Source: Promethearchaeota archaeon
GTDB lineage: Archaea; Asgardarchaeota; Lokiarchaeia; Sigyniarchaeales; SOKP01
Reading direction: 5' to 3'
DNA: 45,998 bases
Assembly: GCA_019058295.1 (NCBI GenBank)
Contig: JAHPZI010000003.1
Location: forward strand, 1 to 45,998
Every line of letters starts with the position of its first letter. Position 1 is the stretch's first letter. This document shows, piece by piece, positions 12,525-43,546 of the stretch. The position numbers were made by a program, and so were the translations under genes. The notes under the pieces were generated by a model. The model was not told the origin of the DNA. It was given only the letters and a program-made list of their open reading frames with translations, and made no database searches.

Positions 12525-15500
12525 TTAGGAATAACAGGTCCTATTGATAATAACCTTTTTCATCTCATCAGAAAGCTCATTAAAGTAGGCGCAGTAACCG
12601 GCAATACGAACCATAAGGTTGGGGTGTTTTTCTGGGTTTTTATAGGCTTCCAGTAATATTTCACGGTTAATGACATTGGGTTGAAGTTCCATTCCCCCTT
12701 TTGTAAGAAATGTCTTTATTATACTTGCCAGATTTTTTACACCCTCTTTGCCCTGAAACAATGCGGAATCAATAGTAAACGTAACCGTTGTACCATTTTC
12801 AGCATGATCTATAAAATTAACCCCAGCGATAGAATTCAGTGACGAAAATAGATCCGATTGTTCCATTCCATAATGCGGAATAATACTGTTGGCAAGAGGA
12901 ACGCCTTTTAATCTTCCCGAAGGCAGGGCTGGGGTATTTTTACCATATCTAGTACAGACATTCAAGGCATAATAGCCAGCTGAATATCTGCCGTTTCGCG
13001 GACAATTCTTCACAGAGTCCAGAGCATTATTATAAATCTCCATTACTTTGGTTACCCATTCTGTAGCTTCACGAGATGAATCATCACCGAATTTTGGTAT
13101 CGCGAGCAATGCAGACCGGATATTCTGGTTATAGTCCCCTTGGAAATTTTTTTCGATGGCATAAATGATGTCACTGATACTATAAAGTTTTTTCTTGAAT
13201 ACAACCTCATTGATGGCATACAACGAATCTGCGACATCCGTAACCCCTAACGCTTGAATACCACTGCTGTTAAAGGTTGTACCGCCTTCGTTTACATCTT
13301 TTCCACTTTCAATACATCCATTAAAGAGTGAGGAGGCAAGAGGTGTTGTAAAATTTTTACAAAGCTCTTTTTCAATTTTCTGGTGATCGGTCAATATTGA
13401 ATTTGCCAGATGGTTCAATCGTGTCTGGAAGCGTTCAAGTAATTCATCCATACTGGATGGTGGGTTATAAATATAGAGACCTTTCTTACTATTACGCCTT
13501 TTAATTAGCTTGTTAAAAATAGTATTAATGTACCTGGAAATTATATTTTTCTTGTATGAATATAAGTATTTATTAAAATTTTTTATTAATTGCAATAATG
13601 CCTCACGGAATCCATAATTCCATAGATCATGTCTATGACCTCTAATTGCCTGCAATAAAGGAAGAGCAAGATTCATATTGGCACAATCTGTATTGCCAAA
13701 ATGGTCATCTGAAGCATTAGGTTCAACACATCCTATTATTGAATAATTTCTCGCATTTTCCAGAGTAGTAGAATAATGTCTTTGTATGGTTTCTATGTAA
13801 ATCTCATCGCTGAATAATTGTGGTATAGGACATCCGTTGATATATCCCTCTGCAATTCTTTCCAGATATTGAGCAGGACTGTTTTTATGAACTCGTGCTG
13901 CCATATCTACACATCGCGGCAGCAGTTCACAGGCATCAATCAGCATATAGGTAATGTCATTGGTGGCATCCCTGCCGTCCTTGTCAACACCGCCAAAAGT
14001 CAAAGCCTGATCTGTAGAGAGAGTCTCAAAATTCTTAGAGATACTTAAAAATGATTCGCCATCATTTATAAAAAATACTTCATCCATTTTGAGAATAAAT
14101 AAACAAAGAAGTTCTTTTGCTTTCTCGTAAGTAATTAACCCTGCTTCTTTGTCCTTTTTATAATAAGGATACAAGATCTGATCAAGACGTCCATAGGAGA
14201 CCGCATTTTCAAAAGATTCAAGGCAAAGCGCGATTTGTATAAACAACATGGATTGCAGAGCTTCATGAAATGTGCGGGCGGGATACATAGGAACATGCCT
14301 ACAGATCCTTTCCATTTCTTCCAATTCCATGCGACGCTCCGGATCTTTTTCTTTCTTGCTCAAACTCGACAATTTTTCAGCATATTTCAGAGCAAAAGAT
14401 TCCAATCCTTTTAGAGCAATTATGATACTATTATAAAAATCCTGATTATTCTCAGGCTTTTCTTTTTGCTTTGCCTTAATCTCTTCTATGAGACCAGAGG
14501 TTCCTAGATTAAGAATGCGTTTAAAATTTACAATATAATGCGCTATTGATACTAAATTATTATTAAATCCAGAATCCATCTCTGAAGTTCGTCCCAGATA
14601 GAAGATAAACTCAGATAATTTTGGATATACCTTCTTTAAAAGGCTATGTTTCGACCAGAAAGGATATATCCGAAAATAAAAGTAGAGCCTATCTTTACGA
14701 GAAATGTGGAATGAAACCGGTTTTTGGCGATTTATTTTATAGAGAAACATTATAGCCGAAGTGCCAGCGTATTCTTCCCAAAGCTGGCCAGCGGTTCTTT
14801 TGGATGTAAAATTACCAACGAGTAGCTCCCGGGGATAGATTATGACTTTCTTATTTCGTAATACATACGAAAGACGTTCTGCCCTATGAATGGGGGTCGG
14901 CTTTTTAAAACCGTGCTTCTTATAATACTTTGTTTTAAGTTTAGCTGCTTCTATACAAAGAGCCAGCCTACTCTCTCTTATATCTTTCTGTATTTCTTTA
15001 ACACGCTGCGTAAAGACGGTTTGATGTCCGGAAGAATCTAGATCCGTGTTTTCGGCCTTAATGCCATAAGATTTGAATAATTTTACTCCATTTTTTAGTG
15101 ATACAAGGCTTTGTTCTGGGGTGATATTTAATGAAGCCACATCCAGACCAAGACGTTGAGCTTTTTCTTCATACAAGTTGTGGTATTTCATTAATTCAAT
15201 TGAGTTATACTTGATTGATTTTAAAAAATCAGAAGTGTTTTGTATATTGCTTTTACTATCGGTGAATCCCGGCACCATTACCATTCGAAATTTAATTTTG
15301 GCGTTTAAATCAATTAATTTCTTTATATTGCTATGGATCAAGGTGCTGTCTTGTTTTGTGTATTTTATATGGAGCTTGTCGTCACCAACAACCTTAAGAT
15401 CAACGAGAAAAAGATCTATGTAAGGTGCGATTTTACTGATATTTTTCCAAGGCGCATGAAGCGATGTTTCAGCGGTTATCTTTATATTTTCTTTTTTTAA

Positions 15501-15803
15501 TAATTTCAATAAATCTATTAGACTATTCGGGTCTTGTAAGAGAGGCTCACCGCCGCTCAGCGTCACTCCACCGTTGGTTGAGCGGTAATAATCAATATCT
15601 CTCGAAACCACTTCCATTATGTCGTCTATTGAATAATTACAATCAGACGCCATGACGCCCTGAAATGATTGCATTTCTGGATTTTGACACCATAAACATC
15701 TCAAATTGCACCCCTTGAAAAACAATGTGGTATTAATCCCGGGGCCGTCATAAACACAGGTACGTTGTATTTGAAAGGTTTTTAGGCTTTCAGTTGTTTG
15801 CAT
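12525..15803 (-). CDS. Fusion of radical-SAM glycyl radical enzyme activase and glycyl radical enzyme
   Basis: 1092 residues in one uninterrupted frame. Residues 1 to about 260 are a PFL-activase-like radical SAM domain: CxxxCxxC at C32, C36, C39 (GCNLRCLWC), a GG motif in TLSGGEPLL (81-89), and VPGFTDS. It lacks the ferredoxin-like insert of many GRE activases. From about 270 to the end is a full-length GRE: thiyl Cys near 692 in IIGCVEP, with the Cys-x-Glu of the eliminase/dehydratase branch, and glycyl loop RIAGYCAYF with Gly 1069. GREs are normally activated by a separate protein. Start MQTTESLKTF at ATG 15803 has no clear ribosome-binding site. The DNA is visibly richer in G and C than its neighbours, suggesting transfer. 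The substrate is unknown. Confidence 0.9.
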   Translation of the reverse strand: MQTTESLKTFQIQRTCVYDGPGINTTLFFKGCNLRCLWCQNPEMQSFQGVMASDCNYSIDDIMEVVSRDIDYYRSTNGGVTLSGGEPLLQDPNSLIDLLKLLKKENIKITAETSLHAPWKNISKIAPYIDLFLVDLKVVGDDKLHIKYTKQDSTLIHSNIKKLIDLNAKIKFRMVMVPGFTDSKSNIQNTSDFLKSIKYNSIELMKYHNLYEEKAQRLGLDVASLNITPEQSLVSLKNGVKLFKSYGIKAENTDLDSSGHQTVFTQRVKEIQKDIRESRLALCIEAAKLKTKYYKKHGFKKPTPIHRAERLSYVLRNKKVIIYPRELLVGNFTSKRTAGQLWEEYAGTSAIMFLYKINRQKPVSFHISRKDRLYFYFRIYPFWSKHSLLKKVYPKLSEFIFYLGRTSEMDSGFNNNLVSIAHYIVNFKRILNLGTSGLIEEIKAKQKEKPENNQDFYNSIIIALKGLESFALKYAEKLSSLSKKEKDPERRMELEEMERICRHVPMYPARTFHEALQSMLFIQIALCLESFENAVSYGRLDQILYPYYKKDKEAGLITYEKAKELLCLFILKMDEVFFINDGESFLSISKNFETLSTDQALTFGGVDKDGRDATNDITYMLIDACELLPRCVDMAARVHKNSPAQYLERIAEGYINGCPIPQLFSDEIYIETIQRHYSTTLENARNYSIIGCVEPNASDDHFGNTDCANMNLALPLLQAIRGHRHDLWNYGFREALLQLIKNFNKYLYSYKKNIISRYINTIFNKLIKRRNSKKGLYIYNPPSSMDELLERFQTRLNHLANSILTDHQKIEKELCKNFTTPLASSLFNGCIESGKDVNEGGTTFNSSGIQALGVTDVADSLYAINEVVFKKKLYSISDIIYAIEKNFQGDYNQNIRSALLAIPKFGDDSSREATEWVTKVMEIYNNALDSVKNCPRNGRYSAGYYALNVCTRYGKNTPALPSGRLKGVPLANSIIPHYGMEQSDLFSSLNSIAGVNFIDHAENGTTVTFTIDSALFQGKEGVKNLASIIKTFLTKGGMELQPNVINREILLEAYKNPEKHPNLMVRIAGYCAYFNELSDEMKKVIINRTCYS

Positions 15804-16117: not shown

Positions 16118-16696
16118 ATGAGTGATGATGAAGAAAGAGGATTTGTTTTTAAAATTGCGGTGATAGGAGATGGTGCTGTAGGAAAAACATCCCTAATTAA
16201 AAAGTATACTTCCGGTGAATTTAATGAGAAATATATAATGACATTAGGGGCACAGTTTACAGAACACAATACTGTTATTCACGACAACCCAATAAGGCTT
16301 GTTTTATGGGACATTGCAGGACAGGAGCAATTTGCCCAACTCCGACAAGGATTTTACAAGGGAAGTAGAGCCTGCATAATTGTTTTCTCTCACGAAGAAA
16401 ATGAACTCGGAGAAAATAGTTTTAATAACATTTCTAAATGGCTTAATGACATAAAGAAGAATTGTGGGAATTTACCAATCATTTTATTTGGAAATAAAAT
16501 CGATTTAATTAAAGATATTGATAAAATAGCCCAAGACAAAGATTATCCAAAATCAAACGACAATATTGATAAAATGGTGGAGGGATACAACTTCCTTGGT
16601 TATTATCTAACGAGTGCACTAACAGGGATAGGAGTTAACGAGGCTTTCCAAATATTATGTGAGAAACTATATCAGATATATAAGGATTTTGCATAA
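16118..16696 (+). CDS. Rab/Ras-like small GTPase
   Basis: 192 residues with all G motifs intact: G1 GDGAVGKTS (17-25), switch I Thr in MTLGAQF (about 42), G3 WDIAGQE with the catalytic Gln near 69, G4 GNKIDL (125-130) and G5 TSA (165-167). It should bind and hydrolyse GTP as a molecular switch. No C-terminal Cys prenylation motif is present (ends IYKDFA), as is usual for archaeal members. AAGTGAT precedes the ATG. The gene converges with the longin-like gene at 16784; the two strands meet in an A-run (16762-16776) that may terminate transcription. Such Rab-like GTPases are abundant in Asgard archaea. Cellular role unknown. Confidence 0.92.
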   Translation: MSDDEERGFVFKIAVIGDGAVGKTSLIKKYTSGEFNEKYIMTLGAQFTEHNTVIHDNPIRLVLWDIAGQEQFAQLRQGFYKGSRACIIVFSHEENELGENSFNNISKWLNDIKKNCGNLPIILFGNKIDLIKDIDKIAQDKDYPKSNDNIDKMVEGYNFLGYYLTSALTGIGVNEAFQILCEKLYQIYKDFA

Positions 16697-40371: not shown

Positions 40372-40902
40372 ATTTTCGTTCAAGTATTTGTATGTAAGAT
40401 TTGTGGTGAAGCTTATATAGGAGAGGAAGAACCATCAAGGTGTCCTTTCTGTGGAGCTTACAAGAAATATTTTGTAAAATCAACGGAATATGATGATTCA
40501 GGAGATTGGGATGTCGAATTGAATGAAACTGACAAAGCTAATGTTGAAAAAGCTTTAGGAGTTGAAATTTCAAACACCTTATTTTACAAATGCGCCTCAA
40601 AGAAGGTAAAAGAAATAGATGGTCAAAAACTCTTTAAGATTCTTAGTAAGGTAGAAAATGAACATGCTTCCGTATGGAAAAAAATACTTAAATTAGATAA
40701 AATCAAAATGGAACCTCCTGAAAGTTGTGTAGAAGATTATACAGCAGATCTTAATGACTCGCATGCACGAGAAGAAAGAGCAATAAAATTTTATGGTGAA
40801 GCTGCTGCTGCCGCTCAAAATCCAAGAGTAAAAGAAATTTTTCAAGCTTTTATAGAAGTGGAGACAGATCATTTAAAGCTCTCAGAAGAAAGATTGAAAT
40901 AA
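40372..40902 (+). CDS. Reverse rubrerythrin: N-terminal rubredoxin-like domain plus diiron domain, apparent ATT start
   Basis: 176 residues. The N-terminus has a rubredoxin-like pair, VCKICGEAY (C8, C11) and RCPFCGAYKKYF (C24, C27), ahead of a four-helix ferritin-like domain (residues 50-176) with ligands in KALGVEISN, ENEH (ExxH), REERAIKFY and ETDH (ExxH). Classical rubrerythrins have the rubredoxin at the C-terminus, so this is the reverse order found in anaerobes. It likely reduces peroxide. A start at TTG 40519 would delete the metal domain. Upstream in frame there is a stop at 40363, then AAA AAA ATT; the ATT at 40372 lies six bases after GGTGA. No ATG, GTG or TTG opens the frame before the first Cys. 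Confidence 0.88.
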   Translation: MFVQVFVCKICGEAYIGEEEPSRCPFCGAYKKYFVKSTEYDDSGDWDVELNETDKANVEKALGVEISNTLFYKCASKKVKEIDGQKLFKILSKVENEHASVWKKILKLDKIKMEPPESCVEDYTADLNDSHAREERAIKFYGEAAAAAQNPRVKEIFQAFIEVETDHLKLSEERLK

Positions 40903-40909
40903 TAATTAC

Positions 40910-40938
40910 TTTTTTTTTAAATTTTTTAATTTTTTTTT
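40910..40938 (+). terminator. Oligo-T terminator after rubrerythrin
   Basis: Runs of nine, six and eight T begin eight bases after the rubrerythrin stop, separating it from the glycyl radical enzyme gene. Confidence 0.5.
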
Positions 40939-40972
40939 CTCATAAATATATTCTTATATTCTGTAAAAACAA

Positions 40973-40982
40973 TTTATAAATA
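40973..40982 (+). promoter_or_regulatory. TATA box of the stand-alone glycyl radical enzyme
   Basis: TTTATAAATA, preceded by GTAAAAACAA as possible BRE. Transcription would begin near 41003, about 40 bases before ATG 41042. Confidence 0.45.
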
Positions 40983-41041
40983 CCCATATAAATTTATAGA
41001 TATTGAATTTTAGACATAATAATTATTAGATGAGTCTTTAA

Positions 41042-43546
41042 ATGAGTAAAATCAATGGCAAATTAGACAGCCACAGAGAGGAACCAAAATTTCCGATTGC
41101 GGAACCTCATGATCTCTCACCTCGTTCAAAATGGCTAAGAGAATATTATTTTAAGGGAGCAGAAAGAGAATGGAATAACGAATTTATGGTATTTACGACA
41201 GGGACTGATTGGGATATAATTTGGTATGAAGGAGATTATTATAACGCACCTGAAATTCTTTATTATATTCAAATTTTGGGAAAAAAAGACAAAGGAGTTT
41301 TTGCTTCTTCCTTTAGATCGATGGGTATACCAGTTAAATTGCCCGATGATTTTTGGGAATTATCCTTGCCAGAACGTAGAATGACATTTCTTGAGGATGT
41401 TATTCTCAATTATATTCCCCAAGAAATTATTTCAGAAAACGATTTAGTTGCTGGGGGAAGGTTTAACACTCAATTAAGTAAATGCTTTAATAAAAACGAA
41501 TCTAAAGAGTATTGGAAAAAAAATATAAGAAATAGAGATGATGTTTTCAAATATCATAGATCTGGATTTGGAAATCTTGGCGCTATCGCAGGACATATCA
41601 TTCCCGATTACGAAGCTGTTGTCAAGAAAGGATTTAAACATATATATGAGAGTGCAAAAGAAAGTTACTCCAAATTAAGTGAAGAGGAAAAAAACGGTCC
41701 AAAAGGACAAGAACTTAGAGCAATGATAAAAGCTGCTGAAATTCCAAGAAAATTAGCAAAAAAATACGTTGAGGAATGTAGAAGATTAAAAGATGAAGCA
41801 ACGACTCCTGAAAGAGTGGAAGAACTTGAACTAATGGCAGAAAATTTGGAGCGCGTTCCGTGGGAGCCTGCAGAAACCTTCTGGCAAGGAGTTCAAGCGA
41901 TTTGGCTTACACACATGTTAGTAATGACAGAAGAGTCTTATCCCGGACCTGGGCTTTCTTTTGGTAGAACAGATCAACATTTATGGTCTTTATACAAAAA
42001 AGATGTTATAGACGAGAAAAATATTACAAAAGAATTTGCAAAGGATATATTGGGAAGCTTCTGGTTTCATTGTAATACTGTGTACGATGCTATGATAAGA
42101 GTTGGCAAGCAAGGAATTACGTCAGCCTTTGGACAATTAATGACATTATCCGGATGCGGTCCGAATGGAGAGGATTTGACGAATGAATTAACCTATACGA
42201 TTTTAGAGGTTATTGATGAGTGGTCGCCTATTCTAGAACCAAAGCCAAACGTAAGATTACATAGAAATTCACCTGATAAATTATTAGATAAAATAATTGA
42301 GATGATCTCAAGGTCTCAAGGTGCTCCTTTTCTAATAAATTTTGATGAAAGGAGTATTGCCGGTATGGTTAAAGAGGGTATTTCTAAAGAAGAAGCTTGG
42401 GATTATGCTTGTGTTGGATGTTTAGAAAACACTATGCAAGGAAACGATCGTTCAGGAACGGTCAATTGTAATCCTAATCTGACAAAAAGTATAGAATTAA
42501 CCCTATGGAATGGAAAAAATATGCCAGGAAACAATTTAGCAACGAAACCCAGCGAACAAATTGGACCTGAAACAGGAGAACCTGAAAATTTTGAAACATG
42601 GGAAGATTTCTGGAACGCATGGAAACAACAAATTCAATTTGCTATAAAATACACTGTAGATATAAACAATTTATGTGAAGAACTACGTGGAGAGTTTCTC
42701 CCAACTCCGTACTTATCAACTATCGTTCGAGGGTGTATAGAGAAGGGTTTAGATGTACGGAATGGTGGACCAGAACTTAGATTCATAACTATTGAAGGAG
42801 TTGGTTTTGCAACCACCGTTGACTCTTTATTAGCAATTAAAAAGTTAGTTTATGATGATAAAAAATATACAATAACTCAAATTAAAGAAGCATTAATTAA
42901 CGATTTCAAAGATACTGAAGTTATGCAAACTTTCCTAAAGAATAAGGCTCCAAAATATGGAAACGATGATGACGCTGCAGACGAATTGGCTAGAAAGGTT
43001 ATGAAAGTCTGGGCGGATGAAACTTGGAAATATAAAACACTAACCGATTTTCAATATCGTCCCGGAATGTTATCTTGGAATTATTGGGCTGGAGCTGACG
43101 CTGGTTTTACAGCTACGACTCCAGATGGTCGAAAAAAAGGTACATTTCTTTCAAATGCGATTTGTCCTTCAAATGGGGCCGACAAATGGGGGCCCACGGC
43201 TGTCACTAATTCAGTAGGAATTGTTTTAGGTGGTAAGACAGAAACAGGAGAATACATAAATTATTTACCAAACGGTGCTTCGCATACGATAACGTTTAAT
43301 CCTAGCATTCTTGTTGATCCCGAGCATAAAGAAAAGTTTAAATCTTATCTAAGGGGCTATGTTGAGAATGGAGGAACATGTTTGCAAATAAATATGCTAG
43401 ATGCTGAAATGTTAAAAGACGCTCAAAAGCATCCAGAGAATTATAAAAACCTCTTAGTTAGAGTTACCGGATATAATGCTTACTTTACGGCAATTGGAAG
43501 GGAATTACAAGACGAGATAATTGCACGAGAATCTCATAAAATTTAG
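41042..43546 (+). CDS. Stand-alone glycyl radical enzyme
   Basis: 834 residues, PFL-like family. The thiyl Cys is near 460 in YACVGCLENTMQ; the Cys-x-Glu (C460, E462) is the pattern of diol dehydratases and C-N/C-C lyases rather than of pyruvate formate-lyase (Cys-Cys). The glycyl loop is LLVRVTGYNAYF with Gly 810, and the C-terminus is IARESHKI. All catalytic elements are intact, so it should form a glycyl radical and carry out an anaerobic radical reaction on an unknown substrate. No activase gene lies beside it in this window; the only activase domain seen is fused to the other GRE at 12525-15803. Strong TATA upstream and T-run downstream indicate a single-gene transcript. Confidence 0.92.
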   Translation: MSKINGKLDSHREEPKFPIAEPHDLSPRSKWLREYYFKGAEREWNNEFMVFTTGTDWDIIWYEGDYYNAPEILYYIQILGKKDKGVFASSFRSMGIPVKLPDDFWELSLPERRMTFLEDVILNYIPQEIISENDLVAGGRFNTQLSKCFNKNESKEYWKKNIRNRDDVFKYHRSGFGNLGAIAGHIIPDYEAVVKKGFKHIYESAKESYSKLSEEEKNGPKGQELRAMIKAAEIPRKLAKKYVEECRRLKDEATTPERVEELELMAENLERVPWEPAETFWQGVQAIWLTHMLVMTEESYPGPGLSFGRTDQHLWSLYKKDVIDEKNITKEFAKDILGSFWFHCNTVYDAMIRVGKQGITSAFGQLMTLSGCGPNGEDLTNELTYTILEVIDEWSPILEPKPNVRLHRNSPDKLLDKIIEMISRSQGAPFLINFDERSIAGMVKEGISKEEAWDYACVGCLENTMQGNDRSGTVNCNPNLTKSIELTLWNGKNMPGNNLATKPSEQIGPETGEPENFETWEDFWNAWKQQIQFAIKYTVDINNLCEELRGEFLPTPYLSTIVRGCIEKGLDVRNGGPELRFITIEGVGFATTVDSLLAIKKLVYDDKKYTITQIKEALINDFKDTEVMQTFLKNKAPKYGNDDDAADELARKVMKVWADETWKYKTLTDFQYRPGMLSWNYWAGADAGFTATTPDGRKKGTFLSNAICPSNGADKWGPTAVTNSVGIVLGGKTETGEYINYLPNGASHTITFNPSILVDPEHKEKFKSYLRGYVENGGTCLQINMLDAEMLKDAQKHPENYKNLLVRVTGYNAYFTAIGRELQDEIIARESHKI

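Follow-up and report, generated by a model that had tools for sequence, protein, structure and literature searches.

Activases of glycyl radical enzymes (GREs) are described as separate partner proteins in excerpts of two papers (PMC11528403; PMC12338860). The exposure of the buried GRE glycine is not fully understood, according to a portion of PMC9326890, and half-site reactivity of GRE dimers is in dispute in the excerpted text of PMC12338860. In the window studied here, i.e., the whole stretch of 45,998 nucleotides analysed from a Promethearchaeota archaeon, an activase and a GRE seem to lie in one reading frame. The question raised by this locus is whether such a fusion is real and, if so, whether the enzyme could install the glycyl radical on itself.

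Architecture of the fused gene

An earlier note on this DNA had proposed a single-frame fusion of activase and GRE, and this was confirmed. A single frame of 1092 codons (window 12525-15803, minus strand) encodes a radical-SAM activase domain, a linker and a complete GRE, with all the motifs at the residues proposed (Cys32/36/39, Cys692, and Gly1069). The features are listed below, with the evidence for each in brackets.

12525..15803, minus strand: fused activase-GRE gene, 1092 aa (ORF, Pfam, homologues, named-genome loci)
15048..15803, minus strand: radical-SAM activase domain, residues 1-252, PFL-AE fold (Pfam, TIGR02494, fold match, motif spacing)
15687..15710, minus strand: CxxxCxxC, Cys32/36/39, radical-SAM [4Fe-4S] motif (sequence; all three Cys invariant in 30 of 30 rows)
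15543..15572, minus strand: GGVTLSGGEP, residues 78-87, radical-SAM GGE motif (sequence, alignment)
15030..15047, minus strand: linker between the folds, residues 253-258 (fold boundaries, alignment)
12528..15029, minus strand: complete glycyl radical enzyme, residues 259-1092 (Pfam, fold match)
13722..13730, minus strand: Cys692-Val-Glu694, putative thiyl cysteine and general-base glutamate (alignment with 5i2a and 2f3o; invariant)
13686..13688, minus strand: Asp706, aligned to an Asp of the propanediol dehydratase motif (alignment)
12594..12608, minus strand: glycyl radical loop R1066-I-A-G1069-Y1070 (sequence, alignment)

In the fold comparison, residues 5-252 matched 3cb8, and the PFL-AE and glycerol dehydratase folds followed each other head to tail. 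The linker comprises about six residues, and residues 248-268, which include it, were constant in length in all 30 rows of the family alignment while varying in sequence. The GRE half is PFL-like, with PF02901 at 449.8 bits (cut-off 24.3) and PF01228 at 78 bits (cut-off 22.2), both above the curated cut-offs, and with a catalytic cysteine and a C-terminal glycyl loop of the RVxGY type. The CxxxCxxC cysteines, Gly84, Gly85, Asp135, Lys137, and Arg173 of the activase half were invariant in 30/30 rows, as were His422, Cys692, Glu694, Asp706, and Gly1069 of the GRE half; E86 of the GGE motif was replaced by D in some rows. We infer the roles of Cys692 (thiyl) and Glu694 (general base) from those in relatives. 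When compared with a 93% identical gene of the same genus, dN/dS came to 0.215 in the activase half and to 0.138 in the GRE half. The fusion is conserved, with purifying selection on both halves, and both halves look active, given the invariant catalytic residues and the low dN/dS.

Elsewhere in the window, a Ras/Rab-like small GTPase gene (window 16118-16696), identified by eye, is divergent from the fused gene and is absent at the corresponding place in the same-genus genome. A second GRE gene is located at 41042-43546 and is immediately preceded by a rubrerythrin-family gene (both in window 40519-43546).

The fusion as a protein family

A homologue search of 5.8 billion proteins, in which 7990 candidates were scored, gave 535 matches at E 1e-30 or better. 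The best 120 of these, a list ranked by score and thus biased to full-length proteins, were 1047-1146 residues long, and the two-domain order, with PF04055, PF02901, and PF01228, was found in 119 of them, the only exception being P0077, which begins inside the activase. All four motif patterns were present in 107 of the 120 listed homologues, with 612-622 residues between the activase and GRE motifs. Seven of the 120 failed the strict GGE pattern only and six the cysteine pattern only, the latter because the sequences begin in or after the pattern.

Among 20 loci from named genomes, 16 hold the whole protein and four are truncated by contig ends. The source genomes are those of Lokiarchaeota, Sigynarchaeum, Hydrogenedentota, Oscillospiraceae, Clostridiales, an unclassified bacterium, Desulfobacteraceae, Syntrophaceae, Smithella, and other deltaproteobacterial records. 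The earlier note had held that homologues always encoded as two genes would speak against its reading; with 16 complete fused loci, this is not so.

Classification of the activase half

Among the activase families listed, TIGR02494 (ferredoxin-type GRE activases) scored best and was the only one above its cut-off (200.4 bits, cut-off 174.35); the PFLA model reached 142.7 bits, below its cut-off of 231.75. This score, together with CxxxCxxC at Cys32/36/39, places the domain among the TIGR02494 activases. The ferredoxin-like insert, typical of these activases but not universal, is absent: 46 residues lie between the two motifs, compared with 87-105 in insert-bearing relatives, and the short type of activase proposed in the earlier note was thereby upheld. 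Most TIGR02494 activases carry the insert, whereas the fused activases do not. Moreover, TIGR02494 activases formed the nearest branches to the fused activase in the tree, though weakly placed, and this weakly suggests that the insert was lost in the fused lineage, the deep branches of the tree being poorly supported. Short separate activases also exist, the closest being P0321 with 42% identity. According to a portion of PMC6181972, the insert of ferredoxin-type activases holds auxiliary [4Fe-4S] clusters. The excerpted part of PMC11528403 cites work according to which one GRE reportedly depends on the ferredoxin-like domain if its radical is to last, which makes the absence of this domain from the fusion of interest.

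Chemistry of the GRE half and gene neighbourhood

The GRE scored below the cut-off of every characterised equivalog (25 of 36 families listed), with a best score of 368.5 bits vs 1000; the equivalogs compared were HypD, CutC, PFL, HpsG/HpfG, HPAD, and IAD. In the alignment with 5i2a, His422, Cys692, Glu694, and Asp706 match residues of propanediol dehydratase. The pocket differs from that of 5i2a at 533-534 (Asn-Ala vs His-Ser) and at 595 (Leu vs Tyr). With low confidence, the GRE could be regarded as an eliminase of the dehydratase type with a different pocket. Its substrate would be one outside all characterised GRE families.

An all-against-all comparison of the neighbours in 21 sources (the window plus the 20 loci) revealed no partner gene that was conserved, and the attempt to deduce the substrate from the neighbours was therefore rejected. 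The best shared neighbour was a GntR/FadR-type regulator just upstream of the fused gene in four loci (L023, L025, L026, and L027), which belong to Smithella, Syntrophaceae, and one 'Deltaproteobacteria' record, and in two loci (L021 and L022) a TetR-type regulator was near the fused gene; one call of each type was confirmed by Pfam. In the Asgard loci, read by eye, neighbours were common to close relatives only. In one genome (G030), both pieces of the fused gene (L065 and L066) adjoin genes of the type found with 2-hydroxyacyl-CoA dehydratases, namely DUF2229 at each piece and a BadF-type ATPase at L066. At L028:7-3060, five ORFs from the fused gene, a 1017-aa protein combines domains of 2-hydroxyacid dehydrogenase, SCP2, and class II aldolase.

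Other unusual GREs were also found. The window genome encodes a GRE of 988 aa (L002, contig C21) with an extra N-terminal region of ~185 residues, in which there was no Pfam match; it is similar (29%, E 1e-8) to a small protein whose gene adjoins that of a GRE in a different Asgard genome (L050). In a GRE-like protein truncated by a contig end (L078, G232 C73), the cysteine motif reads GCWE by eye, the N-terminus is Tat-like, and a further region is present.

Probable self-activation and its alternatives

The 20 loci derive from 18 genomes, 14 of which were scanned for activases (TIGR02494) and GREs (PF02901). In two of these 14, a Clostridiales record (G238) and an unclassified bacterium (G239), PF02901 matched nothing but the fused gene, which was also alone in exceeding the TIGR02494 cut-off. 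The other radical-SAM matches examined in these two genomes were AmmeMemoRadiSam enzymes (C15, C189), NrdG2 (C21), NrdG below the cut-off (C141), and one unassigned protein (C92), and weak matches were also present (G239 C131 and G238 C13). The fused gene was the sole TIGR02494 match in G232, together with a second GRE and a weak match to the PFLA model (C131). In G236 it was the sole activase over the cut-off, and a strong sub-threshold match there (E 7e-34) is probably another activase. When the latter was counted, further activases were present in 11 of the 14 carrier genomes, and over the cut-off in 10; only G232, G238, and G239 were without another one, in assemblies that may be incomplete and could hide a partner.

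Since the fused gene is the sole PFL-type GRE and the sole activase over the cut-off in two of the 14 genomes, it likely activates its own chain or its dimer partner. It seems that the fused gene can be retained without a separate activase, and self-activation in cis or across the dimer would be the simplest reading of G238 and G239. On the whole, we consider it quite probable that the activase domain generates the glycyl radical in the chain to which it belongs or in the dimer partner, and that a separate activase would not be needed. Flavodoxin or ferredoxin would pass electrons straight to the [4Fe-4S] cluster of Cys32/36/39, a direct route being proposed because there is no ferredoxin insert. 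The reduced cluster would cleave SAM, hydrogen would be taken from Gly1069 upon opening of the radical loop, and the radical would pass on to Cys692. In AlphaFold models, the radical loop had low confidence both in the full model (residues 1064-1081) and in a control of the GRE only (797-813, i.e., 1061-1077). Docking in cis, as deduced from the low-confidence loop of the full model, was rejected, since the control was low there as well; the low confidence in both models is better explained by a shallow alignment.

The activase half could, on the other hand, mainly serve the other GREs of the cell in trans, the fusion being just a means of expressing it and the attached GRE perhaps activated by another activase. 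The window genome (G000), which is listed as 79% complete, has eight PF02901 GREs and three TIGR02494 activases over the cut-off, including the fused one, and this agrees with a service in trans, as do the further activases in 11 of the 14 carrier genomes. However, neither another PF02901 GRE nor another activase over the cut-off was found in G238 and G239, and the constant length of the linker also argues against it. We therefore regard such a role as unlikely, although it is the alternative that survives best.

It is less likely still that the two halves become separate proteins through proteolysis or an internal start, the fusion being merely genetic. For this, fragments of the family are relevant. 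A 500-residue piece of the GRE was used as a query, its length chosen to exclude full fusions as candidates. Among the best 120 of 1922 matches, family members had at least 41% identity and other GREs at most 37%, and the family members were incomplete copies, besides two metagenome fragments (P0132 and P0142) that start exactly at residue 268 (Val268). These starts favour separate proteins and were counted against self-activation, an unfused family member being possible. Among 107 family pieces (identity at least 41% for ids below P0283 and at least 50% otherwise, other rows dropped), eight begin or end within residues 245-285 (P0132, P0142, P0246, P0250, P0263, P0265, P0271, and P0272). Split homologues were rejected as evidence of a two-gene form, since the remaining pieces break along the whole protein, as contig ends or frameshifts would cause. 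Separate proteins are also favoured by in-frame activase-stop-GRE pairs with a Shine-Dalgarno-like AGGTGG in another GRE clade of six Asgard genomes. However, the stretch from codon 240 to codon 351 of the window gene is free of ATG, GTG, and TTG codons, which leaves a separate complete GRE without a usual start in it, and the linker length is fixed in 30/30 rows. Moreover, no complete two-gene version of the fusion family was found among the matches in 227 genomes of the Asgard phylum and 155 of the Smithella order, where the partial pieces numbered two and six, respectively, with contig ends checked for some.

The pairs themselves (L045-L049 and L072, in G042, G026, G017, G009, G022, and G068) consist of a short activase gene followed by an in-frame GRE gene, with one stop codon (TAA or TAG) and then one to three codons at the junction and AGGTGG just before the activase stop; L048 has ATT at the GRE start position, the others ATG. 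They were rejected as a two-gene precursor, since they belong to another GRE clade (three of the six are in the tree) and thus give no sign of the parent of the fusion.

It appears very unlikely that the activase domain has degenerated and is left with no more than a structural or regulatory function. The ferredoxin insert common in relatives is indeed absent, but the CxxxCxxC cysteines and the other activase residues named above (Gly84 to Arg173) are invariant, dN/dS is 0.215, and the score exceeds the curated activase cut-off. Finally, a frame error or misassembly joining two adjacent genes is refuted by the homologues and deserves almost no weight: broken copies occur on some other contigs, with nothing of the kind at the window locus, but the same junction is found in independent genomes and assemblies across two domains, and the 119 of 120 listed homologues, the 16 of 20 complete loci, and the linker constant in 30/30 rows argue that the fusion is not an assembly error.

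Origin and distribution of the fused gene

In a quick tree of the GRE domain (52 rows), the 19 fused rows formed one clade with an SH-aLRT of 100, whose stem is long (1.15 changes per site), and in a quick activase tree (43 rows) they also formed one clade, with a support of 99. One origin of the fused proteins is indicated by these trees. The fused gene is carried by seven of 227 genomes of the Asgard phylum, the eighth match (G068) being a two-gene pair of another kind, and by 17 of the 155 genomes in the order to which a Smithella genome belongs. The 20 matches in this order comprise 14 complete ones in 14 genomes and six partial ones, with partial matches only in three of the 17 genomes. 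Within the genus of the window, two of five genomes have it.

The window gene was placed in a clade with other Asgard sequences and two Hydrogenedentota. None of 200 bootstrap trees united the Asgard rows, since the two Hydrogenedentota fall among them, and this speaks for inter-domain transfer, though the starred branches do not force it. A recent bacterial transfer into the lineage of the window does not follow from this 0/200 result, as the starred branches allow a single origin. Third-position G+C of the fused gene was the highest among the 33 genes of the window. However, the 93% identical gene of the same-genus genome is located between the same neighbours, so the raised G+C is no proof of recent arrival, and on this comparison the fused gene appears not to be a very recent arrival in the lineage. 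The transfer proposed in the earlier note thus holds in part, gaining from the patchy, cross-domain presence. A single gene with both parts would suit transfer between lineages, a partner gene not being required.

Comparison with known systems

Pyruvate formate-lyase of E. coli and the PFL activating enzyme are two separate proteins, unlike the fusion, and the fused GRE reached 119.2 bits against TIGR01255 (cut-off 994.2) and lacks an adjacent cysteine pair such as C418/C419, described in the excerpted text of PMC12338860. The B12-independent glycerol and 1,2-propanediol dehydratases (1r8w, 5i2g, 9rco), which use separate activases, have 27-28% identity to the fused GRE.

The only precedent found for an activase-GRE fusion is a distant one, the eukaryotic NrdDG, in which a class III ribonucleotide reductase and its activase are fused in one reading frame (Lundin et al. 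2010, PMC3019208, in part). According to the same excerpt, NrdDG is sporadic and spread by horizontal transfer, and its authors suggested that fusion helps a transferred pair become fixed. As far as this excerpt goes, both systems have a GRE and a radical-SAM activase in one frame and a sporadic occurrence. However, NrdDG belongs to the NrdD branch, whereas the window fusion is PFL-like and has no NrdD-type catalytic domain. Moreover, the activase comes first in the window fusion, whereas the name NrdDG suggests that the catalytic part comes first there, and the transfer of NrdDG described in the excerpt was from bacteria to eukaryotes, whereas the window type is present in archaea and bacteria. 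A PFL-branch activase-GRE fusion was not recognised in the literature searched, a coverage without several key GRE papers and reviews.

Significance of the fusion

Taken together, there is about an even chance that this is a self-starting enzyme, with one radical generator per chain at a fixed distance, in which the halves of the dimer would switch themselves or each other on free of a partner, which would catalyse a new GRE reaction, and which would pass between archaea and bacteria as a single-gene cassette. Because the natural 1:1 tether fixes the stoichiometry and geometry of activase and GRE, mixed dimers of activase-dead and glycine-dead chains could directly separate activation in cis from that across the dimer, and the radicals per dimer could be counted. 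The fusion therefore bears on how the activase gains access to the buried glycine and on whether one or both halves of the dimer are radicalised, questions that figure in excerpts of PMC9326890 and PMC12338860. Being a single gene, it may also offer GRE engineering a practical point of departure, and it flags a widespread GRE clade outside the characterised families.
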